Shown here: one piece after another, positions 2,081 through 61,059 of the stretch | Position numbering within the stretch: the stretch's first letter is position 1 | Layout of the letters: the number at the start of each line of letters is the position of its first letter | Assembly (NCBI GenBank): GCA_027019175.1 | Contig: JALUXB010000019.1 | Span: 1-64,000 of the forward strand | Length of the DNA: 64,000 nucleotides | Reading direction: 5' to 3' | DNA from: Sulfurovum sp. | GTDB lineage: Bacteria; Campylobacterota; Campylobacteria; Campylobacterales; Sulfurovaceae | Notes under the pieces: model-generated | The model's input: only the letters and a program-made list of their open reading frames with translations | Told to the model about the DNA's origin: nothing | The model's database searches: none | Made by a program: the position numbers and the translations under genes

Positions 2081-2136
2081 TATAGCGGGGCTGCAAATTA
2101 AAAGTTTAAAATTAAAAAATTTGGTATGCTTTTCTA

Positions 2137-3270
2137 TTGAAAAGCTTTTATTATTCAGGGAAACAGCTCATGACTTGTTCTAAAATAGAAGCATTGCAAC
2201 GCAATGCAAACCAACAATCCTCAATCCTTAATCCTCTCTCACAGGAGTACCCTGTGAGAAGAGTTCCCGCCGAGTGGGAGAAGCAGCGCTGTGTGCTAAT
2301 GAGCTTCCCGCACGAAGAGACAGACTGGTACGATCCGGACAATCCAAAGTCACTCAACGAAGCCCTGTCACCCTTTATCCGTATTGCACAGGCAGTTGCC
2401 TACAAAGAGCCTGTTTACATTATCTGTAAAGACAAGGAAAAAATAAGTTCCATGTTCTGCTCGACATTCAACATGATTTTTATCGAGCTGCCTACCAACG
2501 ATACATGGATACGTGACTATGGGTACATCACCGTTGAAGAGGATGGAGAGAAGCGGCTACTTGACTTCACCTTTGACGGCTGGGGCGGAAAGTTTGAAGC
2601 TGCTCTTGACAACAGTGTCAACCAGGCACTCCACAAGAAAGGCTACATGGGTACAACACCGCTGGTGCAGATAGATTTTGTGCTTGAAGGCGGCTCGATT
2701 GAGAGTGACGGAGACGGTACCATTTTGACAACCTCTCAGTGTCTGTGCAATCCCAACCGTAACGGTGGATTGACAAAAGAACAGGTCGAAGAGAAACTCT
2801 CCCAATATCTTGGCGCTAAGCGGATTCTTTGGCTTGACCACGGCTATCTTGCCGGGGACGATACCGACAGCCATATTGACACATTGGCACGATTTGTCAA
2901 CAAAGACACCATTGTCTATGTCAAGTGTGATGAGAGCAGTGATGAGCACTACGAGGCGCTCAAGGCGATGGAGAAGCAGCTGCATACCTTCCGTACAGCA
3001 GAGGGAGCCCCCTATACGCTTATCCCCCTGCCTATGTGCGAAGCCAAGTTTGACAAAGAAGGCAACCGTCTACCGGCAACCTATGCCAACTTTCTCATCA
3101 GCAACGGGGCAATGGTCTACCCTACCTATGGCGACAAAACAAACGATGCCAAAGCAGGTGAGATCTTCAAACAGCTTTTCCCAGACAGGGAGATCATTCC
3201 CGTCAACTGCCTCAAACTCATCGAAGAGGGCGGCAGCCTGCACTGCTCGACGATGCAGATACCTTTTTAG
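2137..3270 (+). CDS. aguA: Agmatine deiminase (N-terminus contains repeat element; native start possibly GTG 2254)
   Basis: VRRVPAEWEKQRCVLMSFPHEETDW, NDTWIRDYG, EGGSIESDGDGTILTT, GGSLHCSTMQIP catalytic Cys region; AGGAG at 2243-2247 before in-frame GTG 2254. Confidence 0.92.
   Translation: MKSFYYSGKQLMTCSKIEALQRNANQQSSILNPLSQEYPVRRVPAEWEKQRCVLMSFPHEETDWYDPDNPKSLNEALSPFIRIAQAVAYKEPVYIICKDKEKISSMFCSTFNMIFIELPTNDTWIRDYGYITVEEDGEKRLLDFTFDGWGGKFEAALDNSVNQALHKKGYMGTTPLVQIDFVLEGGSIESDGDGTILTTSQCLCNPNRNGGLTKEQVEEKLSQYLGAKRILWLDHGYLAGDDTDSHIDTLARFVNKDTIVYVKCDESSDEHYEALKAMEKQLHTFRTAEGAPYTLIPLPMCEAKFDKEGNRLPATYANFLISNGAMVYPTYGDKTNDAKAGEIFKQLFPDREIIPVNCLKLIEEGGSLHCSTMQIPF
2191..2236 (+). repeat. Palindrome-heptamer element, copy 1 (aguA)
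   Basis: GCATTGC-AAC-GCAATGC (2191-2207), AAACC, then AATCCTC AATCCTT AATCCTC (2216-2236). Confidence 0.75.
2237..2259 (+). promoter_or_regulatory. Hairpin over Shine-Dalgarno and candidate start of aguA
   Basis: TCTCACAGG-AGTAC-CCTGTGAGA, perfect 9-bp stem; contains AGGAG and GTG 2254. Confidence 0.6.
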
Positions 3271-3279
3271 GAGTCAACC

Positions 3280-4179
3280 ATGAAAACCGCACTGATACAA
3301 CAGCGTTACCACGGCAGCAAAGAAGCAACCATCGCCCGTACGCTTGAGATGATCGCCCAGACCGATGCCAAACTTGTCATCTTGCAGGAACTCCACCAGA
3401 GCGAATACTTCTGTCAGAGTGAAGAGACAAAATTTTTCGACTATGCCGAAACCTATAAAGAAGATATCACCTTTTGGCAGCAAGTCAGCAAAGAGCGGCA
3501 GATCGTACTGGTTACCTCCCTCTTTGAGAAGCGCACAGCAGGTATCTACCACAACACCGCCTATGTCTTCGACCATGGCGAGATCGCAGGGAAGTACCGA
3601 AAAATGCACATCCCTGACGACCCGGGATACTACGAAAAATTCTACTTTACCCCCGGAGACATGGGCTTTGAACCCATAGATACTTCCGTTGGAAGGCTTG
3701 GTGTACTGGTCTGCTGGGATCAGTGGTACCCCGAAGCGGCACGCATCATGGCACTCAAAGGAGCACAGGTACTCATCTACCCCACCGCCATCGGCTACCT
3801 TGCATGCCCCAAAGAGCGCCACGATGAACTGTGTGAAAAAGAAAATACCCCCGAAGAGAAACGCAAAATGCGCGAAGCGTGGATCGCCGTACAGCGCGGA
3901 CATGCCGTAGCAAACGGCGTTCCGGTACTGACAGTCAACCGTGTGGGAAGCGAAAAAGACCCTTCCGGCGTACTCGAAGGCATCGACTTTTGGGGCAACA
4001 GCTTTGCTTTTGGTCCGCAGGGAGAACTGCTTGCAGAGGGTTCACAGGAGAATGAAGAGATTATCGAACTGGAGCTGGATATGCAAACAGGGGAAGAGGT
4101 GCGCAAGATCTGGCCGTTTCTGCGTGACAGACGCATCGAATCTTACGCTTGTCTTCAAAAACGCTTCTGCGATACGTAA
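3280..4179 (+). CDS. aguB: N-carbamoylputrescine amidase (nitrilase superfamily)
   Basis: Glu/Lys/Cys triad motifs incl. GRLGVLVCWDQWYPEAAR; adjacent to aguA. Confidence 0.93.
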   Translation: MKTALIQQRYHGSKEATIARTLEMIAQTDAKLVILQELHQSEYFCQSEETKFFDYAETYKEDITFWQQVSKERQIVLVTSLFEKRTAGIYHNTAYVFDHGEIAGKYRKMHIPDDPGYYEKFYFTPGDMGFEPIDTSVGRLGVLVCWDQWYPEAARIMALKGAQVLIYPTAIGYLACPKERHDELCEKENTPEEKRKMREAWIAVQRGHAVANGVPVLTVNRVGSEKDPSGVLEGIDFWGNSFAFGPQGELLAEGSQENEEIIELELDMQTGEEVRKIWPFLRDRRIESYACLQKRFCDT

Positions 4180-4201
4180 GGTGTTGTCCCCTGACAACAC
4201 C
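4176..4201 (+). repeat. REP family 2 hairpin
   Basis: GTAAGGTGTTGTCCCCTGACAACACC; carries the aguB stop codon (TAA 4177-4179). Confidence 0.75.
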
Positions 4202-4315
4202 CATATGGAAAACGGAAAATATGATACAGTAACCCCACACAAAAATTTACACTAAGCCAACCTCTAAGTTATATAGCTTATAATCCACAGTAATTTACTA
4301 ATTGAAAGGTTTTCT

Positions 4316-9755: not shown

Positions 9756-11014
9756 TGCATACCGAAAAGGTATAGCCCATATATGCCTGCACTCCCAAGC
9801 AAACCGTAAAAAGCCTTTTTGCTGCGGATAGCCCACAGGGCAAGTGCAATATAGCCTGCCCCGAGCCACCATGGTACATACTGTTCAGTTATGGGTGTAT
9901 GGATCTCAAAAAGCCTTGAAAGCACAGGATCCAACACCCCTCCTGCACCAATCAGATGCAGCAGCATCACAACAGGGTAAAAAGGGATAAAGAGCAGTGA
10001 CAGAAGCGGAGAGAGAAGCTGCATCGGCGTGGTCACCGGAAATACCATATGCACGACCGGCAGCATTAAAAGAAAAATACCTACGGGAATCACAGCCAGG
10101 GTAATCACTCTGCTGTCCCACCCTTTGGTATAGTGCAGCAGCAGATAGATAAAAAAGACACCTGCTACCGAGAACCAGAAGCCCAGAGAAACAACCAAAG
10201 AAGGGAAAAGCACCGGTAACAGCAACATGACTGAGGCAAGAAATTCGAAGCTGAGTATCTCTACACCCATGATCAGCATCAGCCATCCAATGAAAAGCAT
10301 CACATACGCTCTCAGCAGTGACGGCGGTGCGCCGGTAAACCAGACATATGCCCCAAGCAACAGCATCGTCACGGCACCCACATCAAGCAACGCAAAGCGA
10401 TACGGGAACCACCGCTGCTGCAACGGGCGGTACAGTGCATAGAGCAGAAAATAGACCATCCCCCATAATATACCAAGATGAAATCCGCTGAGCGCAATCA
10501 AATGGCTGATACCCAACTGCGATACCTTTTGACGCAGTGAAGGCTCAAGCGGGCTGGCAAAAAAGATGGCCTGGTAAAAGTTTGCAAGCCTGTTGTCCCT
10601 GTGTTGTGCAGCGACATGCTCCATTAGACTCTTTTTCCATGAAGCCTCTTTTGGTACTACCCGCTTAATACGACTTTTTACATAGAAAGTACCCAAATAT
10701 TTGCTAAAAGGAATATCCTCATTGGGAAAAATCTGCAGTCGAAGCCTTGTACCGGAAAGATCTTTTTTTTGATGGGTTGTAGTATAAAAATGCAAGCCCT
10801 CATCACTGTGCAGTTTCAATACCTGATAGCTTCGGCTGCCATTGGTTTTACGATAGGCATTCTCAACATTGGCAAATGTAAAATAGAACGGCTTGGAGAT
10901 AAACGCATTGTATTCCCGGTACTCCCAGCCAAGACGCAACAAAAGTAAAAGCAGCATCATCGCTGCAAAAAGGAAAAAGGATCTTGGCGACTCAAAAACC
11001 TTCGGTTTCTCCAT
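9752..11014 (-). CDS. ComEC/Rec2-family competence membrane protein
   Basis: QLGISHLIALSGFHLGILWGMVYFLL, GAPPSLLRAYVMLFIGW. Confidence 0.88.
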   Translation of the reverse strand: MEKPKVFESPRSFFLFAAMMLLLLLLRLGWEYREYNAFISKPFYFTFANVENAYRKTNGSRSYQVLKLHSDEGLHFYTTTHQKKDLSGTRLRLQIFPNEDIPFSKYLGTFYVKSRIKRVVPKEASWKKSLMEHVAAQHRDNRLANFYQAIFFASPLEPSLRQKVSQLGISHLIALSGFHLGILWGMVYFLLYALYRPLQQRWFPYRFALLDVGAVTMLLLGAYVWFTGAPPSLLRAYVMLFIGWLMLIMGVEILSFEFLASVMLLLPVLFPSLVVSLGFWFSVAGVFFIYLLLHYTKGWDSRVITLAVIPVGIFLLMLPVVHMVFPVTTPMQLLSPLLSLLFIPFYPVVMLLHLIGAGGVLDPVLSRLFEIHTPITEQYVPWWLGAGYIALALWAIRSKKAFYGLLGSAGIYGLYLFGMH

Positions 11015-13583: not shown

Positions 13584-13605
13584 GGTGCGTGATTACGCAC
13601 CCTAC
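13584..13605 (-). repeat. REP family 1 half-element
   Basis: GGTGCGTGATTACGCACCCTAC; ispG stop codon (13602-13604) lies in its GTAG end. Confidence 0.8.
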
Positions 13606-14663: not shown

Positions 14664-14684
14664 ACTGTGCCTTTTATTATAACT

Positions 14685-14789
14685 GTAGGGTGCGTACTCA
14701 CGCACCTCTTTAACAATCAACATTGGATATTATCATACATTCCCACCATATGATTGAAACAAAAAACGGTGCGTGGCTACGCACCCTAC
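14685..14789. repeat. REP family 1 inverted pair
   Basis: GTAGGGTGCGTACTCACGCACC (14685-14706) and GGTGCGTGGCTACGCACCCTAC (14768-14789). Confidence 0.85.
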
Positions 14790-14820: not shown

Positions 14821-16731
14821 TTACGAGAACTCCACCGGGTCCATATCTACCTCTATCTCCCGACAGTCAACCGCATGCAGGGCTTTAAGCAGCGGTACTC
14901 TGTTTTTGGCACGCAGCAGTATCTGGAAGCGGTACTTGTTGGCAATCCGTTCTACGGGAGCTTTGCCATGTCCGACAATCTCTATCTGCGCAAATGCTTT
15001 GAGTTTTGTGACCGTATCCATCGTCATCTTGGCCGCTTTGGCTTCATTTTTATGTGCAATCAGAATGCGTGCCAACGATACAAAAGGCGGATATTCCGCA
15101 ATCTCCAGAAAGAGCAGCTCATCTTTGAGAAACTGCTCATAGTTTCCCAGGTAGGGTTCAAACTGGGCAGGGTCAGCAGTCTGAATAAGCACTTCTGCCT
15201 GCTTCGCACGCCCGCTTCGCCCGGCAATTTGAAAAAGAAGGCTCATCGCCCGTTCTCTCGAGCGGTAGTCCGCCATCCCCATAATATGATCAAGTCCCAT
15301 GATGACTGCCAGGGTGATATTGGGGTAGTCATGCCCCTTGCTGAGCATCTGCGTGCCCAGCAGCAGATGACTTTCACCGCTTTCGAAGCGTTTAAGTGCC
15401 TTGACTAGTTTATTGGCAGTGGTAATACTGTCTCGGTCGAACTGCTCTATCTTAATGCCCTCTATGGCTTCCTCTATGACTTCAATCGCTTCCTGCGTAC
15501 CAATGCGTTCACTGCTCAGAGGCGTATGTCCGCAGTAGGTACAACTCTCCCGTATGGCTTCGGTGTAGTTACAATAGTGACATTTTAGGTGCCGTCGTTT
15601 TCTGTGCAGAGCCATCCCCACCGAACAGTAGGGGCAGGTATGCGTCTTGCCGCAGTTTTGGCAGTAGAGATACTTGAAGTTGCCCCGAGTAGGCAAAAAG
15701 AGCAACGACTGTCCACCCTCTTCGTAATGTTCCCTGATCGCATACACAATGGGAGCCGTAATACCGTCACCAGGTATGAACCTGTAACGTTTTTGGGTCT
15801 GTACATAGGGTTTGGGGAGCTTTATCACATCATACTTGTAGTAGCTTGTCGTACTCGGGGTTGCAGAGGCAAGCACCACCTTTGCCCCCAGCTTCTGCCC
15901 CATGAGCACCGCAACATCTCTGGCATGGTAACGCGGTCTGGTCTGCGCCTTATAGCTGTCATCATGCTCCTCATCGACGATGATCAGCCCCACATCACGC
16001 ATCGGCGTAAAGAGCGCCGAACGCGCCCCAGCAATGATGCGCACCCTGCCAGACTCAATCCCCTCAAGTATCTCCTCTTTTTTCTTCTTTGTGATCTTTG
16101 AGTGCCACATCGCCACCGTATCACCAAAGTAAGCACGCAGACGCTTCTCCATCTGCGGCGTAAGAGAGATCTCCGGCATCAGAAAGATGGTTGTTTTGCC
16201 CTCTTCAAGCATTTTTGCCATGAGGGTGATAAAGATTTCGGTCTTTCCCGCACCAGTCACACCAAAAAGGAGGGCTTTGTCTTTTTGAAGGAGCTGCTTG
16301 TAGGCTTGTTGCTGCTCAGGAGAGAGGGTAGGGTGTTGTACCCCCATAACACCATTTTCTATTTGAGAAGTCGGTGTTGTCAGGGGATAAGCATCTACAA
16401 TGCCATGCATACGAGGAACTAAATTCCGAGTCGTACAACACCCTACGGAATATGGCAAAAAAAGTGAAATCGCTTCAGAAAAAGAGGAGAAGTAATACTC
16501 CGAAATAAATTTGGCAATCTGCATCTGGATATCGTTATATGCATACTCTGAAACAGCAAGTATCGCTTCTGTCTCAAAGGTGGGTACTTCTATTTTGGCT
16601 AAAACGACTGCCTGCTTTGTGGTAGATTTGAGGGGAACGCTAACGACACTGCCAGACGGCAGTGCCTCAGAAGCACGGTAGGTAAGAACCGGTGCGCTGG
16701 AGTACAGCAGTGCGACTTTGTAAAAGTACAC
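14821..16731 (-). CDS. priA: Primosomal protein N' (PriA helicase)
   Basis: GVTGAGKTEIF, DEEHDDSYKA, zinc-binding CxxC (YCQNCGKTHTCPYCSVGMALHRKRRHLKCHYC), QIAGRSGR. Confidence 0.95.
   Translation of the reverse strand: MYFYKVALLYSSAPVLTYRASEALPSGSVVSVPLKSTTKQAVVLAKIEVPTFETEAILAVSEYAYNDIQMQIAKFISEYYFSSFSEAISLFLPYSVGCCTTRNLVPRMHGIVDAYPLTTPTSQIENGVMGVQHPTLSPEQQQAYKQLLQKDKALLFGVTGAGKTEIFITLMAKMLEEGKTTIFLMPEISLTPQMEKRLRAYFGDTVAMWHSKITKKKKEEILEGIESGRVRIIAGARSALFTPMRDVGLIIVDEEHDDSYKAQTRPRYHARDVAVLMGQKLGAKVVLASATPSTTSYYKYDVIKLPKPYVQTQKRYRFIPGDGITAPIVYAIREHYEEGGQSLLFLPTRGNFKYLYCQNCGKTHTCPYCSVGMALHRKRRHLKCHYCNYTEAIRESCTYCGHTPLSSERIGTQEAIEVIEEAIEGIKIEQFDRDSITTANKLVKALKRFESGESHLLLGTQMLSKGHDYPNITLAVIMGLDHIMGMADYRSRERAMSLLFQIAGRSGRAKQAEVLIQTADPAQFEPYLGNYEQFLKDELLFLEIAEYPPFVSLARILIAHKNEAKAAKMTMDTVTKLKAFAQIEIVGHGKAPVERIANKYRFQILLRAKNRVPLLKALHAVDCREIEVDMDPVEFS
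16328..16446. repeat. Composite REP family 2 pair in-frame inside priA
   Basis: GTAGGGTGTTGTACCCCCATAACACC (16328-16353) and GGTGTTGTCAGGGG...GTACAACACCCTAC (16372-16446). Confidence 0.7.
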
Positions 16732-18589: not shown

Positions 18590-20563
18590 TTGTCAAACTT
18601 TATTGTAAACAGTCCTTATAATCCTTCAGGTGATCAGCCTGAAGCCATTAAAGCACTTTCGACATCCATTCTTGAAGGCAACCGCTATCAGACGCTACTG
18701 GGGGTGACGGGGTCGGGGAAGACCTATACCATGGCGAAAGTGATTGAAAAGACCAAAAAGCCCACACTCATTATGACGCACAACAAAACACTGGCGGCAC
18801 AGCTCTACAGTGAGTTCAAAGCCTTTTTCCCCAACAACCATGTCGAGTATTTTATCAGCTACTACGACTACTATCAGCCCGAAGCCTATCTGCCACGGCA
18901 GGATCTTTTTATTGAAAAGGACAGTTCCATCAACCAGGAGCTTGAACGGCTCAGGCTCAGTACCACCGCCAGCCTGCTCAGCCATGATGATGTCATCGTC
19001 ATCGCATCGGTTTCGGCAAACTACGGTTTGGGAAGTCCGGAGGACTACCGCTCCATCGTCCAGAAGCTCTCGGTAGGCGAAGAGTACAACCAAAAGGAGC
19101 TTTTACTGCGGCTTGTGGACATGGGCTACAAGCGTAACGACGAATTCTTCGATATCGGGAACTTCCGTGTCAGTGGTGAAGTCATAGACATCTATCCTGC
19201 TTACTCCGATGAGTTTGCCGTACGCATCGAATTTTTCGGTGACGAGATAGAGGACATTTACACCTTCAACTCACTGACCGGAGAGAAAGAGAAGCACATG
19301 AAGGAAATAACTATCTACGCCGCCAACCAGTTCGTGGTGGGCAAGGAGAAGCTCGCACGCGCCATTAAGAGCATTGAAGAGGAACTGGATGAACGGCTTG
19401 CCTTTTTTCAGCGTGAGGGACGCATGGTGGAGTACAACCGTCTCAAGCAGCGTACTGAGTTCGACCTTGAGATGCTCGAAGCCACCGGTATGTGCAAGGG
19501 TATTGAAAACTACTCGCGGCACCTCACAGGCAAAAAGCCCGGCGAGACCCCCTACTCGATGATGGACTACTTCGAGGTGATGCATGACGACTACCTTGTC
19601 ATTGTGGATGAGTCGCACGTTTCACTGCCGCAGTTTCGGGGAATGTACGCGGGAGACCGCAGCCGTAAAGAGGTACTGGTAGAACACGGTTTCAGACTGC
19701 CAAGTGCACTGGACAACCGCCCGCTCAAGTTTGACGAGTACATCAACAAAGCACCCCACTATCTCTTTGTCTCCGCCACCCCTGCCCAGCTTGAGCTTGA
19801 CCTCTCCGCTACTGTTGCCGAGCAGGTTGTCAGACCCACCGGGCTGCTTGACCCTGAGATCGAAGTTATCGATTCGACTTATCAGGTAGAAAATCTGCAT
19901 GACCGTATGAAACCGGTCATCGAGCGTGGAGAACGGGTGCTTGTTACCGTGTTGACAAAAAAGATGGCAGAGGAGTTGACAACCTACTACAACGACCTTG
20001 GACTCAAGTGTAAATATATGCACTCCGATCTTGACGCCATCGAGCGTAACCAGATCATCCGCTCTTTACGGCTTGGGGAGTTTGACATCTTGGTCGGGAT
20101 CAACCTGCTAAGAGAAGGGCTTGACCTGCCCGAAGTCAGCCTTGTAGCCATTTTGGATGCGGACAAAGAGGGCTTTTTGCGCTCCCAGACGGCACTCATC
20201 CAGACTGCCGGACGTGCCGCACGTAACGCCAACGGTAGAGTGCTGATGTATGCCAAAAAGATGACCGACTCGATGAAGGCTACCATCGAGATCACACAGG
20301 CAAGAAGAAAGAAGCAGATTGCCTATAACAAGGAACACGGCATCACCCCCAAAACCACCATCCGGGAGCTTGACACCAACCTCAAGGTCGAAGACGGCGG
20401 CGAACTCTACAACAAACGCTCCAAACTTGACAAAATGCCCAAAGCCGAACGTCAACAGCTTATCAAAGAGCTCAAAGCCAAGATGCTTGCAGCAGCCAAA
20501 AATCTGGAGTTTGAAGAGGCGGCAAGGCTGAGAGATGAGATAGCGAAGATTAAAAAGCTGTAG
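18590..20563 (+). CDS. uvrB: Excinuclease ABC subunit B
   Basis: [37 protein letters not shown]-terminal UVR motif [15 protein letters not shown] start. Confidence 0.97.
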
Positions 20564-20652
20564 GGTGCGTAGTCACGCACCTTCAAGCCATTATGAAAAA
20601 ACAGCGTTCATTATCGGTTTACGCGTAAACGGTGCGAAATATCGCACCCTAC
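20560..20652. repeat. REP family 1 inverted pair
   Basis: GTAGGGTGCGTAGTCACGCACC (20560-20581, includes uvrB stop) and GGTGCGAAATATCGCACCCTAC (20631-20652). Confidence 0.85.
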
Positions 20653-20717: not shown

Positions 20718-20798
20718 ATGCCTTCATCAATAAAGGCATTGCAAAGCAATGCAAACCGACACTATTCACCAAATCGCCCATCGGAGTCCCTCCGATGA
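20718..20798 (+). CDS. Putative ppk leader peptide MPSSIKALQSNANRHYSPNRPSESLR
   Basis: AAAGGA 8 nt upstream of ATG 20718; stop TGA overlaps ppk ATG (ATGA). Confidence 0.4.
   Translation: MPSSIKALQSNANRHYSPNRPSESLR
20736..20770 (+). repeat. Palindrome-heptamer element, copy 2 (ppk)
   Basis: GCATTGC-AAA-GCAATGC (20736-20752) then AAACCGACACTATTCACC. Confidence 0.72.
20779..20797 (+). promoter_or_regulatory. Hairpin over Shine-Dalgarno and start codon of ppk
   Basis: CATCGGAG-TCC-CTCCGATG, 8-bp perfect stem; GGAG in 5' arm, ATG 20795 in 3' arm. Confidence 0.6.
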
Positions 20799-22879
20799 TC
20801 GATTTGAACGACCCCCAGCTCTACTTCAACCGTGAACTCAGCTGGCTGCAGTTCAACTCCCGTGTACTGGCACAGGCACTCGATGAAACTCTGCCGCCGC
20901 TGGAGCGTTTGAAATTTCTTGCCATTTACGGTACGAACCTCGATGAATTTTACATGATCCGTGTTGCAGGGCTCAAAGCACTCTTCAAAGCACGTGTTCA
21001 GGAGACCGGACCAGACCGTCTTACGCCTGCCGAACAGTTGGCACAGATCCGTGCCTATCTGCATAAGGAGCATGACATACTCGAATCATGCTACACCTCC
21101 ATTATCTCAGAACTTCATAGCCATGGTGTACATATTAAAAATTTCGAAGCACTCTCGGCAGCACAGCAGGAAGAGGTAAAAGAGATCTTCTTTGAAGAGA
21201 TTTATCCGGTTATCATTCCCATCGCCATCGATGCCACTCACCCCTTCCCTCACCTGAACAACCTCAGTTTTGCGCTGGCCATTACACTGGAGGACGAGTC
21301 GGGGCATATCAAACACGGGCTTATCCGTATTCCGCGTATTCTTCCACGTTTTATTCAGGTCGATCATACGTTTATTCCCATTGAGAGTGTCGTTGAGCAC
21401 TTTACAACCGAACTTTTCCCCGGATTCACTCCGCTGGCATCCACCCCGTTTCGTGTTACACGAAATGCCGATATTGAAATAGAAGAAGAGGAAGCTGATG
21501 ACTTTCTGGAAATTTTGCAGGAGGGACTGCGCTCTCGGAACAAGGGTTCACTCATCCGCCTTGAACTGCTCGAAGGGGTTGATGATGACCTGCTTCAGTT
21601 CCTGCTGACACACCTCAACCTTAACGAACACGATATTTACCCATACAAAAGCCTGCCGCTTAACCTCGGCGCGCTTTGGCAGATTGTCGGAGACAAACAG
21701 CTTTCACACCTTGTACTGCCTACTTTTACGCCAAAAATTCTGCCGCCTTTTGATACCGAAAATGTTTTTGAAGCCATTGAAAAACAGGATGTCGTGCTCT
21801 ACCATCCCTTCGACAGTTTTGAACCGGTCGTACAATTCATTAAACAGGCTGCTGCAGACAAAGATACCATTGCCATTCGCATGACACTCTACCGCGCCGG
21901 ACAGAAATCGCCTATTGTCAAAGCGCTCATCGATGCCGCACGTGACGGCAAGCAGGTTACTGTACTTGTTGAACTCAAAGCGCGTTTTGACGAAGAGAAC
22001 AACCTTCGCTGGGCAAAGGCACTCGAAGATGCCGGAGCACATGTAGTTTACGGCATCCCGGGACTCAAGGTACATGCCAAAATTGCACAGGTCATCAAAC
22101 GCCGGGGCCGCAAGCTGCAAAGCTATGTACACCTCGCAACAGGAAACTACAATCCAAGCACTGCTAAAATCTATACCGATATATCCTACTTTACAGCCAA
22201 AGAGGCATTTTCTACCGACGCAACTCATTTCTTCCACTTTCTGACAGGGTTTTCAACCTACACCAAACTTGGCACGCTGTTCATGTCGCCGGTACAGATC
22301 AAGCCCAAACTCATCAAACTGATTGAAAAAGAGAGCCAATTGGGAAAAAAGGGGCATATTATTCTCAAGGCCAACTCGCTGGTAGACCAGGATATTATTA
22401 AAACCCTCTACAAGGCTTCTCAAAAAGGATGCCGAATCGATCTTATCATCCGTGGTATCTGCTGTCTTAAACCGGGAGTGAAGGGTGTTAGTGAAAACAT
22501 TAAAGTCTCTTCTATCATCGGGAAGTACCTCGAACACCCGCGTATCTACTGGTTTAAGCACCAAAAGGTCAAAACCTACATTTCCAGTGCCGACCTGATG
22601 CCGCGTAACCTCGTACGCCGTGTCGAGCTGATGACACCTATCATAGAACCCAATCTCTCACAGAAGATTGAACAGATACTCATGTTGCAGCTTGCAGACA
22701 ATCAGTTACGCTGGGAACTACAAAAGAGCGGTGAATATGTGAAGGTTCCTGCGCTTGGCAAAAAAATCAACAACCACAAAATTCTTGAGCAGTATGTCAA
22801 CCGTATCCATGACAAAACCAAAAAAGAGACACCCAATTATGTCAGCCGCTTGGCAAACCGTATTTTAAAAGAAGGATAA
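20795..22879 (+). CDS. ppk: Polyphosphate kinase 1
   Basis: LYFNRELSWLQFNSRVL, YHPFDSFEPVV, KLIIRGICCLKPGV-like motif; ATG 20795 preferred over 20711. Confidence 0.95.
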   Translation: MIDLNDPQLYFNRELSWLQFNSRVLAQALDETLPPLERLKFLAIYGTNLDEFYMIRVAGLKALFKARVQETGPDRLTPAEQLAQIRAYLHKEHDILESCYTSIISELHSHGVHIKNFEALSAAQQEEVKEIFFEEIYPVIIPIAIDATHPFPHLNNLSFALAITLEDESGHIKHGLIRIPRILPRFIQVDHTFIPIESVVEHFTTELFPGFTPLASTPFRVTRNADIEIEEEEADDFLEILQEGLRSRNKGSLIRLELLEGVDDDLLQFLLTHLNLNEHDIYPYKSLPLNLGALWQIVGDKQLSHLVLPTFTPKILPPFDTENVFEAIEKQDVVLYHPFDSFEPVVQFIKQAAADKDTIAIRMTLYRAGQKSPIVKALIDAARDGKQVTVLVELKARFDEENNLRWAKALEDAGAHVVYGIPGLKVHAKIAQVIKRRGRKLQSYVHLATGNYNPSTAKIYTDISYFTAKEAFSTDATHFFHFLTGFSTYTKLGTLFMSPVQIKPKLIKLIEKESQLGKKGHIILKANSLVDQDIIKTLYKASQKGCRIDLIIRGICCLKPGVKGVSENIKVSSIIGKYLEHPRIYWFKHQKVKTYISSADLMPRNLVRRVELMTPIIEPNLSQKIEQILMLQLADNQLRWELQKSGEYVKVPALGKKINNHKILEQYVNRIHDKTKKETPNYVSRLANRILKEG

Positions 22880-24077: not shown

Positions 24078-24137
24078 GGAATGATAATACGCTGTAAACT
24101 TTGGTCAATGGAAATATTGCACTGTTATCGCTTTCGC

Positions 24138-24229
24138 GTAGGGTGCGTAATCACGCACCATTGAGATACATGACAACCAAACATGCTTATTTTACAAACG
24201 GTTTGAAGGTGCGTGGCTACGCACCCTAC
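24138..24229. repeat. REP family 1 inverted pair
   Basis: GTAGGGTGCGTAATCACGCACC (24138-24159) and GGTGCGTGGCTACGCACCCTAC (24208-24229). Confidence 0.87.
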
Positions 24230-24251
24230 GCGTTCTCTCTTGTCAATCAAA

Positions 24252-24304
24252 GCATTGCAAAGTAATGCATACCGAAACTATTCACTCTTCACTCTTCTCT
24301 CTTC
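24252..24304 (+). repeat. Palindrome-heptamer element, copy 3 (3' side of dnaQ-like gene)
   Basis: GCATTGC-AAA-GTAATGC (24252-24268), ATACCGAA, then ACTATTC ACTCTTC ACTCTTC TCTCTTC. Confidence 0.75.
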
Positions 24305-25081
24305 ACTTTTTATTCTCCTGCTCTTCTTACTCGATGTCGAAAACTGCAACAAATCATCGGTCGTTTTAACATACTCCGGCAGGGTTTCAAAGCTCTTTAG
24401 CATCACTTTGGAGGCGCAAAGTGCGTCAGAGTAGGCACGGTGGTGGTTGGTCTCTTCCATACCGAGTGCCTCGATGAGATAGGCAAGCCCGTAACGTTCG
24501 CTTTCGAAGGTGCGTCTGGCAAGGTCGATCGTGCAGAGTTTGGGGTTACCGATACCGCCAAGACCAAAACGCTCAAAAGAGGCATCAAGGAATGTGTAAT
24601 CAAAATTGGCATTGTGTGCAACAAAAACCGCATCACCCATGAAGTGCCGAAGCCCTACAAGTGCTTCCCTTCGGGTCGGCGCACCGATGAGATCTTCAGG
24701 TTCTATGCCGGTGATTTTTGTAATATACTCAGGCAAAAAAGCACACTCTACAAACGTTTCGTACCGGTCAATCACCTCTCCTTTTTCAACCATCACCGCA
24801 CCGATCTCAATGACTTGCGAAGTACCCGGCTTACTGCCGTTTGTTTCAATGTCTATGACACAGTAGCGCTGCATCTGATAGGGAGTAAAATATGTTTTCA
24901 GTCGGTAGACATCTTCCTCTTGTTCAATGGGGTACCCTGACGCCTGCAGGAGCAGAAAGATCGTATCGCTCTCTTCAAGCAGTGTCGTATGCTTTTTGAC
25001 AATACTGCTGTACTGCGTTGCGTTTAATATGCCTCCGTGCTTGCGAAAGGCCTGTGTCAGTTCGTTAAATACTTTTCGCAT
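24278..25081 (-). CDS. DnaQ-like DEDDh 3'-5' exonuclease
   Basis: CVIDIETNGSKPGTSQVIEIGAV, VAHNANFDYTFL, HHRAYSDA; C-terminus runs into heptamer repeat. Confidence 0.9.
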   Translation of the reverse strand: MRKVFNELTQAFRKHGGILNATQYSSIVKKHTTLLEESDTIFLLLQASGYPIEQEEDVYRLKTYFTPYQMQRYCVIDIETNGSKPGTSQVIEIGAVMVEKGEVIDRYETFVECAFLPEYITKITGIEPEDLIGAPTRREALVGLRHFMGDAVFVAHNANFDYTFLDASFERFGLGGIGNPKLCTIDLARRTFESERYGLAYLIEALGMEETNHHRAYSDALCASKVMLKSFETLPEYVKTTDDLLQFSTSSKKSRRIKSEERRVKSE

Positions 25082-25658: not shown

Positions 25659-25670
25659 AGTTTCAACCTT

Positions 25671-25759
25671 GTAGGGTGCGTAATCACGCACCGTTTATTT
25701 ATTTCAATATATAGCCTTGCGGCAATCTCTTTTAAGTGGTGCGTGACTACGCACCCTAC
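25671..25759. repeat. REP family 1 inverted pair
   Basis: GTAGGGTGCGTAATCACGCACC (25671-25692) and GGTGCGTGACTACGCACCCTAC (25738-25759). Confidence 0.87.
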
Positions 25760-46586: not shown

Positions 46587-46618
46587 TTAAGTTAAACACT
46601 GGGCACTGAGGGGTTCGC

Positions 46619-46711
46619 GTAGGGTGCGATATTTCGCACCTTCATATCGTTGATCAAAAATAACCGCTACTATTACCATACACTTCAAGGGTGCGTGACT
46701 ACGCACCCTAC
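46619..46711. repeat. REP family 1 inverted pair
   Basis: GTAGGGTGCGATATTTCGCACC (46619-46640) and GGTGCGTGACTACGCACCCTAC (46690-46711). Confidence 0.85.
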
Positions 46712-46764: not shown

Positions 46765-48078
46765 ATGAATACCCCATCAAAAAAAGCATCGCAAAGCGAT
46801 GTATACCAACACTCCTCACTCCTCACTCCTCATTCCTCACTATCCAAACAAAGTATCACTTTGTTTGGATATGGTTTGACCACCAAAGCCATTGCCAAAA
46901 AGCTTGGCGGGGGCTGCACCTTCTTTGACGATAACTGCAAGGAATCCTACACCGATGATATGGGAAACCGTATTCTGCCTTCACACCTCTTCGACCCGGA
47001 CACAAGTGAACTGGAAATTACCACCCCCAGTCTCAAACCCGATCATCCCCTCATTAAAAGTGCAAAGCATCTGTTGAGTGAATACGACTACTTTCTTGGC
47101 AGGGTATTGTCGGGGGACAACACCCTGCAAAAAAAACCGTTCACAGTTTGGATTAGTGGCACCAACGGTAAGACCACCACGACACAGATGCTCACCCATC
47201 TCCTTGAAAAACGCGGTGCGGTAAGCGGAGGAAACATCGGTACACCCTTGGCAGAGCTGAATCCTGAAGCGAACATCTGGGTACTGGAAACAAGCTCTTT
47301 CACTCTCCACCATACCCGCTACGCTTCCCCCAACATCTACCTTCTGCTTCCCATTACTCCCGACCATCTTGACTGGCATGGAACACCGGAAGCCTATGAG
47401 GCGGACAAACTCCGCCCGCTTAAAATGATGCAAGAAGGGGAACTGGCACTCGTTCCAAAAGGGCTGACTCTTCCTGAAACCGATGCCTTTGTCGTTGAAT
47501 ATGACAGCAATGATTTTCTTTGTGAATACTTTGGCCTCGATGCTTCACAACTCAACTATCGGGGTGCTTTTTTACAAGATGCTCTACTCTCGCTGGCCAT
47601 TGCCAAAGTACTGTTTGACGAAACAGACTACAACCTGCTTAACCGTTTCAAACGTGATGCCCACCGACAGGAAGAGTTTACCGATGCCAAAGGGCGCCTT
47701 TGGGTCAATGACTCCAAAGCAACTAACCTCGATGCGGCAGTACAGGCCGTCAAAGGGTATGCCGACCGTCACATCCACCTTATCATTGGCGGTGATGACA
47801 AAGGAGTTGACCTTACACCCCTTTTTAAACTTATTGCACCAATGGACATCACCCTTTACAGCATTGGCGCCAACAGCGAAAAAGTAAGAGCACTCTCAGA
47901 AAAATTCGGCATCGATCTCAAAGAGGCCGGTACACTTGAGAATGCCGTAAGAATGATAGATAAGGTTCTTGATGAAAAGAGCATCGCACTGCTCTCCCCT
48001 GCCGCAGCAAGTTTTGATCAGTTCAACTCCTATAAACACCGAGGTGAAGCGTTTGTTGATCTTGTGAAAGCACTTTGA
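46765..48078 (+). CDS. murD: UDP-N-acetylmuramoylalanine-D-glutamate ligase with repeat-derived N-terminus and internal insert
   Basis: ITLFGYGLTTKAIAKKL, VWISGTNGKTTTTQML, VNDSKATN, GGDDKGVDL; repeat-encoded NTPSKKASQSDVYQHSSLLTPHSSL and LGRVLSGDNTLQ. Confidence 0.95.
   Translation: MNTPSKKASQSDVYQHSSLLTPHSSLSKQSITLFGYGLTTKAIAKKLGGGCTFFDDNCKESYTDDMGNRILPSHLFDPDTSELEITTPSLKPDHPLIKSAKHLLSEYDYFLGRVLSGDNTLQKKPFTVWISGTNGKTTTTQMLTHLLEKRGAVSGGNIGTPLAELNPEANIWVLETSSFTLHHTRYASPNIYLLLPITPDHLDWHGTPEAYEADKLRPLKMMQEGELALVPKGLTLPETDAFVVEYDSNDFLCEYFGLDASQLNYRGAFLQDALLSLAIAKVLFDETDYNLLNRFKRDAHRQEEFTDAKGRLWVNDSKATNLDAAVQAVKGYADRHIHLIIGGDDKGVDLTPLFKLIAPMDITLYSIGANSEKVRALSEKFGIDLKEAGTLENAVRMIDKVLDEKSIALLSPAAASFDQFNSYKHRGEAFVDLVKAL
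46786..46841 (+). repeat. Palindrome-heptamer element, copy 4 (murD)
   Basis: GCATCGC-AAA-GCGATGT (46786-46802), ATACCAAC, then ACTCCTC x3, ATTCCTC, ACT. Confidence 0.78.
46841..46871 (+). promoter_or_regulatory. Perfect 14-bp hairpin at the native murD start region
   Basis: TATCCAAACAAAGT-ATC-ACTTTGTTTGGATA. Confidence 0.6.
47099..47128 (+). repeat. REP family 2 hairpin in-frame inside murD
   Basis: GCAGGGTATTGTC-GGGG-GACAACACCCTGC, one A-C mismatch. Confidence 0.68.
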
Positions 48079-51328: not shown

Positions 51329-52327
51329 ATGAAACCTGAACTACTCACTACTCACTGCTCACTGCTCACTAAAAAAAACTTATTGGCTTTCTCTTCCGGC
51401 ATTGATTCTTCTGCACTCTTTTTTCTCCTCATAGAAAACAATATCAAATTTGATATTGCCATCGTTGATTACGGCTTACGTAAACAGAGCAACGAGGAGA
51501 TACAGCACGCCAAAGCTCTGGCAAGACAGTACAACCTTACTTGTCATACAGCAACAGCACCAAAATTCACATCACATTTTGAACAGCAGGCACGTGCCTT
51601 TCGTTATGCTTTTTTTGAGAGCCTCATACGAGAATACCACTATGATAATTTACTGACTGCCCATCAACTCAACGACCGGCTGGAATGGATGCTGATGCGG
51701 CTTGCCAAAGGTGCTGGTGTGGTAGAGATGACCGGTCTGGAAGCTGTAACACAGAAAAAAGGCTACACACTGCTGCGTCCACTGTTAGACTACAGCAAAG
51801 ACGAACTGCTGGCTTACCTTAATGTGAATAAGCATCCCTATTTTGTCGATGAGAGCAACAGCGACGAACGATACGAGCGTAACGCTTTTCGCAAACATTT
51901 CTCCGATCCGATCATTGCCAAATACAAAGAAGGCATCAAACGTAGTTTTGATTACCTTGAAACGGACAGGGAACAGCTTCTTTCAGGCTATGAAACTATG
52001 TATCACGAAAAAGAGCTCTATGTACTCAGAATATATGATTCAAAAGTGAAAACAAGGGCAGTCGACCGAACCCTTAAACGGCTTGGCTACCTTCTCTCTG
52101 CCGCACAGCGTCAGGAGATTGCTACAAGTGATTCTCTTGTCATCGGTCGTACATGGGCCGTTGCGTATCAAGAGAAGGTTCTCTACATCGCCCCTTACCT
52201 CACTGCCGATATGCCCAAAGACTTTAAAGAACAATGCAGAATCAACAAAATACCGTCAAAAATAAGACCCTATCTCTTCAAAGCGAAGATCGATCCGGAA
52301 ACAATACGCCAATTACACCATCCGTAG
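51329..52327 (+). CDS. tilS: tRNA(Ile)-lysidine synthase
   Basis: LLAFSSGIDSSALFFLL PP-loop, DYGLRKQSNEE, TAHQLNDRLEWMLMRLAKG. Confidence 0.93.
   Translation: MKPELLTTHCSLLTKKNLLAFSSGIDSSALFFLLIENNIKFDIAIVDYGLRKQSNEEIQHAKALARQYNLTCHTATAPKFTSHFEQQARAFRYAFFESLIREYHYDNLLTAHQLNDRLEWMLMRLAKGAGVVEMTGLEAVTQKKGYTLLRPLLDYSKDELLAYLNVNKHPYFVDESNSDERYERNAFRKHFSDPIIAKYKEGIKRSFDYLETDREQLLSGYETMYHEKELYVLRIYDSKVKTRAVDRTLKRLGYLLSAAQRQEIATSDSLVIGRTWAVAYQEKVLYIAPYLTADMPKDFKEQCRINKIPSKIRPYLFKAKIDPETIRQLHHP
51340..51370. repeat. Heptanucleotide tandem repeat in tilS N-terminus
   Basis: ACTACTC ACTACTC ACTGCTC ACTGCTC ACT. Confidence 0.8.
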
Positions 52328-52349
52328 GGTGTTGTCCCCCGACAACACC
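52324..52349 (+). repeat. REP family 2 hairpin
   Basis: GTAGGGTGTTGTCCCCCGACAACACC; tilS stop TAG 52325-52327 is within its GTAG. Confidence 0.82.
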
Positions 52350-52414
52350 GAAACATCAAACGAAAAACACACAACAATAAATTCAAAGCACATTCAAAAC
52401 ATTTTGGCAAACGC

Positions 52415-52508
52415 GTAGGGTGCGAAATCTCGCACCTTCATACTATTCTTAAGAAATAACGGTTATTTCTATTTATGCATTTCAAAGGTGCGTGACTACG
52501 CACCCTAC
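52415..52508. repeat. REP family 1 inverted pair
   Basis: GTAGGGTGCGAAATCTCGCACC (52415-52436) and GGTGCGTGACTACGCACCCTAC (52487-52508). Confidence 0.87.
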
Positions 52509-60943: not shown

Positions 60944-60956
60944 ACATCATTTCACG

Positions 60957-61059
60957 GTAGGGTGTTGTCCCCCGACAACACCAACAGTTTATTCCGGTAA
61001 TAGAATTTGGTATAGTGAGTGCGACCAAAGGAAGTGCCTGTGGTGCACAGCACCCCTGC
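60957..61059. repeat. REP family 2 element with degenerate partner
   Basis: GTAGGGTGTTGTCCCCCGACAACACC (60957-60982); GGTGCACAGCACCCCTGC (61042-61059). Confidence 0.65.

Follow-up and report, generated by a model that had tools for sequence, protein, structure and literature searches.

In this study, we identified a dispersed family of short palindromic repeats that is limited to the Sulfurovum clade, and its existence was confirmed. It is probably a clade-specific element resembling REPs and RPEs, which is coupled through a leader ORF to the genes, many of them housekeeping genes, at whose starts it lies, and whose heptamer tail and inverted repeat would have originated at the DNA level. A typical copy consists of AATAAAAGC-hairpin-GCATACC, four locus-specific heptamers and, often, a unique inverted repeat that is made partly of flanking gene sequence. 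Four copies are present in the window, that is, the whole stretch of 64,000 nucleotides that was analyzed, together with several related features:

2123..2152, minus strand: inverted partner element, GGTATGC-TTTTC..GAAAAGC-TTTTATT, which makes up a REPIN-like pair together with the core at 2188 (sequence and coordinates)
2170..3270, plus strand: aguA-type ORF (Pfam PAD_porph) opened by an upstream ATG, with the element as in-frame N-terminal extension
2188..2212, plus strand: core palindrome, copy 1, GAAGCATTGCAACGCAATGCAAACC (pattern match)
2215..2236, plus strand: heptamer tail of copy 1, CAATCCT units (TRF)
2237..2259, plus strand: locus-specific inverted repeat TCTCACAGG-agtac-CCTGTGAGA, over the GTG (hairpin scoring)
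20718..20798, plus strand: 26-codon leader ORF across copy 2, whose terminal TGA (20796-20798) forms an ATGA overlap with the ATG of ppk
20733..20757, plus strand: core palindrome, copy 2 (pattern match)
20758..20769, plus strand: short tail of copy 2, about one heptamer
20770..20806, plus strand: locus-specific inverted repeat with arms at 20770-20786 and 20790-20806, over the start codon of ppk
20795..22879, plus strand: ppk (polyphosphate kinase)
24249..24273, plus strand: core palindrome, copy 3, with no gene start and no ATG leader here
24277..24307, plus strand: heptamer tail of copy 3, ACTCTTC (TRF)
46765..48078, plus strand: murD ORF, to whose N-terminus the element is fused in frame (Mur_ligase_M; orthologues)
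46783..46807, plus strand: core palindrome, copy 4, GCATCGC/GCGATGT (pattern match)
46810..46841, plus strand: heptamer tail of copy 4, CACTCCT (TRF)
46841..46871, plus strand: locus-specific inverted repeat with 14-bp perfect arms, the right arm being murD coding sequence
47101..47128, plus strand: a different REP-type palindrome, GRVLSGDNTLQKK, in frame within murD at the site where congeners carry the element
51340..51370, plus strand: array of heptamers lacking a core, located in frame at the beginning of an ORF resembling tilS (51329 onward)

A repeat family of the Sulfurovum clade

An earlier, sequence-only reading of this DNA had claimed four core sites, all of which are in place as 25-nt cores. 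The 7-nt repeats that it placed after every core were found by TRF in copies 1, 3 and 4, but the ppk copy retains only about one unit. The inverted repeats at 2237-2259, 20770-20806 and 46841-46871 and the partner element at 2123-2152 were absent from that reading.

The window was scanned with the core pattern GCAWYGCAAMGYRATGY, allowing up to two mismatches, and compared with shuffled sequences. Six matches were obtained versus 0.73 by chance, and no shuffle reached six; the two surplus matches, at 10387 and 60389, have no tail. In the host genome, which has 2.2 Mb in 87 contigs, 19 matches were obtained at up to three mismatches, versus none for a backwards control, and about 15 of them show the WACC-heptamer context by inspection. 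Four candidates (L014, L015, L017 and L018) were rejected as copies because they resemble chance matches to coding sequence. The earlier statement that all copies lie on the plus strand is true within the window but not genome-wide, where 11 cores are forward and 8 reverse. Among 60 related genomes the pattern was detected in 16, every one of which belongs to the 36 congeners, with up to approximately 30 copies per positive congener, and it was found in none of the 23 genomes from other families of the order. Further copies are thus not few, as the sequence-only reading had allowed that they might be. All these counts derive from pattern searches and fetched loci in genomes that are mostly MAGs, and orthologous copies are numerous, so that the counts are not independent.

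A search for the exact 22-base core in 85,462 species retrieved 71 stretches, all from the Sulfurovum clade or from Campylobacterota MAGs (some labelled Nitratifractor or Campylobacterales) with the exception of one Sphaerochaeta match. The latter, in Sphaerochaeta halotolerans (L100 3958-3979), lacks heptamers, lies in apparent coding sequence and is probably due to chance. The exact core was not found in viral contigs, and carriage by phage was rejected on this ground. Our search for literature on this element in Sulfurovum returned just the general REP paper.

Based on 139 distinct copies, the unit comprises AATAAAAGC-stem-loop-GCAWACC, a RACACT-type linker and the heptamers, which are followed in most gene-facing copies by a locus-specific inverted repeat. 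In the 7-bp core stem, 98.6% of cells are standard pairs among 50 distinct copies, and both sides are changed in 30 cells. The covariation score of this stem was 0.342 versus 0.150 in shuffled data, none of 500 shuffles scored as high, and slid controls were also far below, which bears out the stem covariation proposed earlier. Mismatches in this stem lean toward G-U (13 versus 3 A-C), in a set for which some copies had been fetched with a pattern permitting G-U changes. Four aligned heptamers are present in 99 of the 139 copies, with an identity of 92% within a locus versus 68% between loci. On the G-rich strand, the most frequent units are AGTGAAG, AGTGAAT and AGTGAGG, none of which contains a run of three G as G-quadruplex-capable tracts would. 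In several loci (L013, L031 and L118; L037, L049 and L019), two more repeats, AGAAGGTGAATTGCGAAGCAAGAG.. and TACCCCAAGGGCACTTGTC..GGGCGCAC, are nested within the heptamer arrays. A core-less heptamer array also appears to be fused in frame onto an ORF that looks like tilS in the window (51329-51400, predicted to encode MKPELLTTHCSLLTKKNLLAFSSG...).

In about a quarter of the copies (33/137, versus 0/137 control windows), an inverted partner is located no more than 140 nt upstream, with the form GGTATGC-hairpin-GCTTTTATT preceded by purine-rich heptamers. Such pairs, with two inverted units close together, are therefore REPIN-like. An autonomous element lying between two copies was also considered and rejected, as inverted pairs are in excess only at close range and not at 0.6-2.8 kb. 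At coaD the left heptamers start where the upstream gene has its stop codon, and in three coaD loci (L105, L076 and L022) the first of the inverted partner's purine-rich heptamers apparently provides this stop.

Leader ORFs and orthologous sites

The usual layout at gene starts is an out-of-frame leader ORF that stops on the gene's own start. An ATG located 12-30 nt before the core, with a frame open through it, occurs in 54 of the 91 copies at gene starts versus 4 of 42 other copies, which implies that this ATG belongs to the host gene and not to the element. Placement is thus non-random, in agreement with the bias to gene starts suggested by the sequence-only reading. The heptamer strand and the core have no stops in the frames used. 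With respect to the core, the 54 leaders are in phase 0 in 29 copies, in phase 1 in 24 and in the third phase in 1; in the third phase ATAAAAGC would give TAA. The single conserved reading frame that had been claimed from the window was therefore a small-sample effect.

The distance between the leader ATG and the gene start takes 24 values from 77 to 182, and it is 2 mod 3 in 44 of the 54 copies (p 5e-13 per copy; 0.002 by gene family). Accordingly, 44 leaders are in the +2 frame, 7 are fused to the gene and 3 are in the +1 frame, or 14, 5 and 2 when counted by gene family. Leaders in the +2 frame stop on the start codon as ATGA (+4) or TAATG (+1), or else at +7 and +13, and the three in the +1 frame stop one base ahead of the start. 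All leaders of hisA and coaD (26 copies with a leader) are in the +2 frame. Gene starts were picked by a heuristic script, and two loci (L022 and L054) were scored at the wrong start; on inspection, both are GTGA overlaps.

It had been proposed that the element starts aguA, ppk and murD in one frame. This is correct for aguA and murD, both of which are fused, but the ATG at 20718 opens a 26-codon ORF that stops at 20798, over the ppk ATG at 20795. The PAD_porph match of the aguA-type ORF starts at residue 31, past the extension, and an alternative GTG start is located at 2254 within the hairpin. For MurD, the predicted fused peptide is, for example, MNTPSKKASQSDVYQHSS. The overlapping form of aguA, and not the fusion, was observed in a Sulfurovum relative (L054). 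Start-codon annotation of murD, aguA, hisA, coaD, ppk and other genes should be regarded as unreliable in this clade.

Orthologous sites were then compared. In congeners with an empty site, hisA reads ...SD-ATGACAATACTACC, and the coaD ATG is located a few codons ahead of the conserved RAIYPG. In filled hisA and coaD sites an SD and ATG are still found upstream and are separated from the core by approximately 12-20 nt; heptamers come next, frequently with a hairpin after them, and the gene then begins at a new or retained start. The empty sites thus indicate that the native start has been turned into the leader start. As to the target-site duplication expected of a MITE, ATG or ATGA is present on both flanks at hisA and coaD, and no longer duplication was seen by eye.

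The comparison of starts with and without the element, which had been suggested earlier, found murD sites that are filled in some congeners and empty in others. A second, internal murD site, between SEYDYF and FTVWISGTNGK, carries an in-frame insertion in about 20 of 40 congeners and is mostly empty or nearly so in the remainder. Several of the insertions that were read contain the core, and others contain heptamers only or different REPs, such as GRVLSGDNTLQKK in the window. In-frame insertion into protein-coding genes, a feature of RPEs, was found in both internal and N-terminal copies, with empty orthologues, and the internal murD insertion is RPE-like behaviour at a tolerant protein site. 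It is likely that the element was mobile in the past, considering its presence or absence at orthologous sites and its multi-copy dispersal.

The locus-specific hairpin and its possible origin

The unique inverted repeat mostly begins 33-35 nt past the core end and has a 3-4-nt loop and arms of 7-20 bp, the sequence of which differs at each locus. Using our own scoring script, hairpins with a score of at least 8 were detected at 52 of 75 filled starts versus 6 of 216 control starts, and at 6 of 16 heptamer-only starts versus 22 of 591 starts with neither feature. Among orthologues of hisA, coaD and the two murD sites, filled sites had a hairpin in 29 of 40 cases versus 10 of 80 for empty sites (p 7e-11). 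Copy 3 in the window has no unique hairpin (score 4). In 36 of 68 cases, 5 nt or more of the right arm lie within the gene, which effectively makes the left arm a copy of the flank in inverted orientation.

We consider it probable that these features belong to a clade-specific REP/RPE-like element. At gene starts, the native SD and ATG remain upstream with the element lying between them and the gene, and the leader ORF ends on a re-made gene start (ATGA or TAATG) or is fused to the gene. Termination-reinitiation coupling of overlapping genes, including ATGA coupling, has been experimentally established in other prokaryotes (PMC6728339). Ribosomes translating the leader might be passed to the gene in the same manner, and such coupling would leave expression almost unaffected by the element, as has been proposed for MIRUs. 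The heptamers may arise at the DNA level by slippage, which would account for their homogeneity. The flank could be copied in inverted orientation by template switching, which is known both to generate such stems and to perfect them (PMC8794818), or by snap-back synthesis in the course of insertion. Neither the heptamers nor the inverted repeat would then be primarily a selected RNA switch.

A more specific proposal is that the family represents a new kind of mobile element that inserts just behind start codons and turns the native start into that of a coupled leader, with snap-back joining at the heptamer end and with heptamers and inverted arm as footprints of the insertion enzyme. We regard this as possible but rather unlikely.

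It is also rather unlikely that the unique hairpin was selected as a regulatory RNA switch, masking the SD or start so that the gene is expressed only upon translation of the leader. In most gene-start copies the hairpin does cover the start codon or the SD, with stable folds of -17 to -21 kcal/mol; hairpins in this position have been described as coupling devices (PMC12548453, PMC6728339), and ppk orthologues with altered sequence retain the pairing. However, the unique hairpin is not merely a start-codon device. It occurs in 16 of 39 copies that face gene 3' ends or otherwise do not face a start, versus 5% of control gene ends, and an equal hairpin is present at the internal murD site, where there is no start codon; both observations speak against a switch that acts purely on translation. 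Among the mismatches of the unique stems, 7 are G-U versus 18 A-C, the opposite of what is expected under selection for mRNA pairing, which also argues against such a switch and favours a putative DNA-level origin. Moreover, several filled coaD sites have no hairpin, and Rfam families matched only a tRNA in the window and no cis-regulatory RNA. Hence, of the two options that the sequence-only reading had left, a mobile in-frame palindrome or a translated leader or regulatory RNA, the dispersed palindromic family stands and is compatible with translation, but a match to a regulatory-RNA family was not obtained.

Relation to known repeats

Tests for the terminal tags of known REPs failed, and the likeness to other systems is partial; the element was therefore filed as a separate dispersed palindromic repeat, which is a member of neither the MIRU, RPE, GTAG/CGTC REP nor Xanthomonas/Nostoc heptamer families. 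MIRUs, according to a 2025 review, have an internal ORF coupled to the downstream gene at -4 (ATGA) spacing, which lowers their effect on expression (PMC12548453). The Sulfurovum element is similar by this description, not by sequence, as a gene-start repeat with an ORF coupled at ATGA spacing, but it differs in its palindromic core, its heptamer tail, its locus-specific inverted repeat and the use of the host ATG by the leader. This suggests MIRU-like tolerance of repeats at essential gene starts in a second, unrelated phylum.

Rickettsia RPEs, which the sequence-only reading had named as the nearest analogy, and CGTC repeats (PMC3733652, PMC10969869) are also palindromes read in frame in protein genes, as in the internal and N-terminal murD copies. 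The analogy is appropriate for in-frame insertion. In the Sulfurovum element, however, no CGTC terminal tag is present in the core consensus, leaders are mostly out of frame rather than fused, and a heptamer tail is attached. The G-rich heptamers of Xanthomonas and Nostoc (PMC4692102) resemble the tail in unit length, in having four units most commonly, and in the G-rich strand being antisense just before ORFs or sense just past stops; those of Xanthomonas also form inverted pairs. In contrast, the Sulfurovum units mostly contain runs of one or two G, from which no G-quadruplex is expected, and they are joined to a palindromic core and a unique hairpin.

GTAG REPs and REPINs mobilized by RAYT (PMC3733652) share with the element the short palindrome, the inverted dimers and the intergenic spread, and canonical GTAG REPs are also present in the window. 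That the element is an ordinary RAYT-mobilized REP/REPIN family is nevertheless improbable. The GTAG tetranucleotide is found at neither end of the core consensus (AATAAAAGC..GCATACC, or GGTATGC..GCTTTTATT on the reverse strand), and a heptamer tail is foreign to REPs. No consistent RAYT association was observed either: Y1 transposase (PF01797) is patchily distributed and does not track the element, with no match in the carriers G020 (100% complete, 13 copies) and G034 (99%).

It is very improbable that the element inserts like a retrotransposon, with a reverse transcriptase making the tail repeats and a snap-back copy of the primer strand. The geometry would fit target-primed synthesis with a repeated 3' tail, but RVT_1, which likewise does not track the element, has no match in four carriers (G000, G016, G020 and G034). 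Chance or assembly artefact can be practically dismissed, for even though most genomes are MAGs, the control gave no matches and the element is present in two genomes that consist of a single contig (G016 and G024) as well as in numerous independent assemblies. With its target-derived inverted arms, homogenized heptamers and filled and empty sites, the family represents a natural system for studying how hairpins originate, whether by template switching or by insertion chemistry.

Two further palindrome families were observed in the window. A canonical GTAG-type REP family, GTAGGGTGCGTNNNNACGCACC, is abundant, often as inverted pairs 50-80 nt apart, with copies at 13584-13605, 14684-14707, 20559-20582, 24136-24160, 25669-25692, 46617-46641, 52413-52437 and other positions. 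The second, a GTAG-like family, GTAGGGTGTTGTCCCCYGACAACACC, was found at 4175-4202, 16327-16390, 47101-47128 (in frame in murD), 52323-52350 and 60956-60983.
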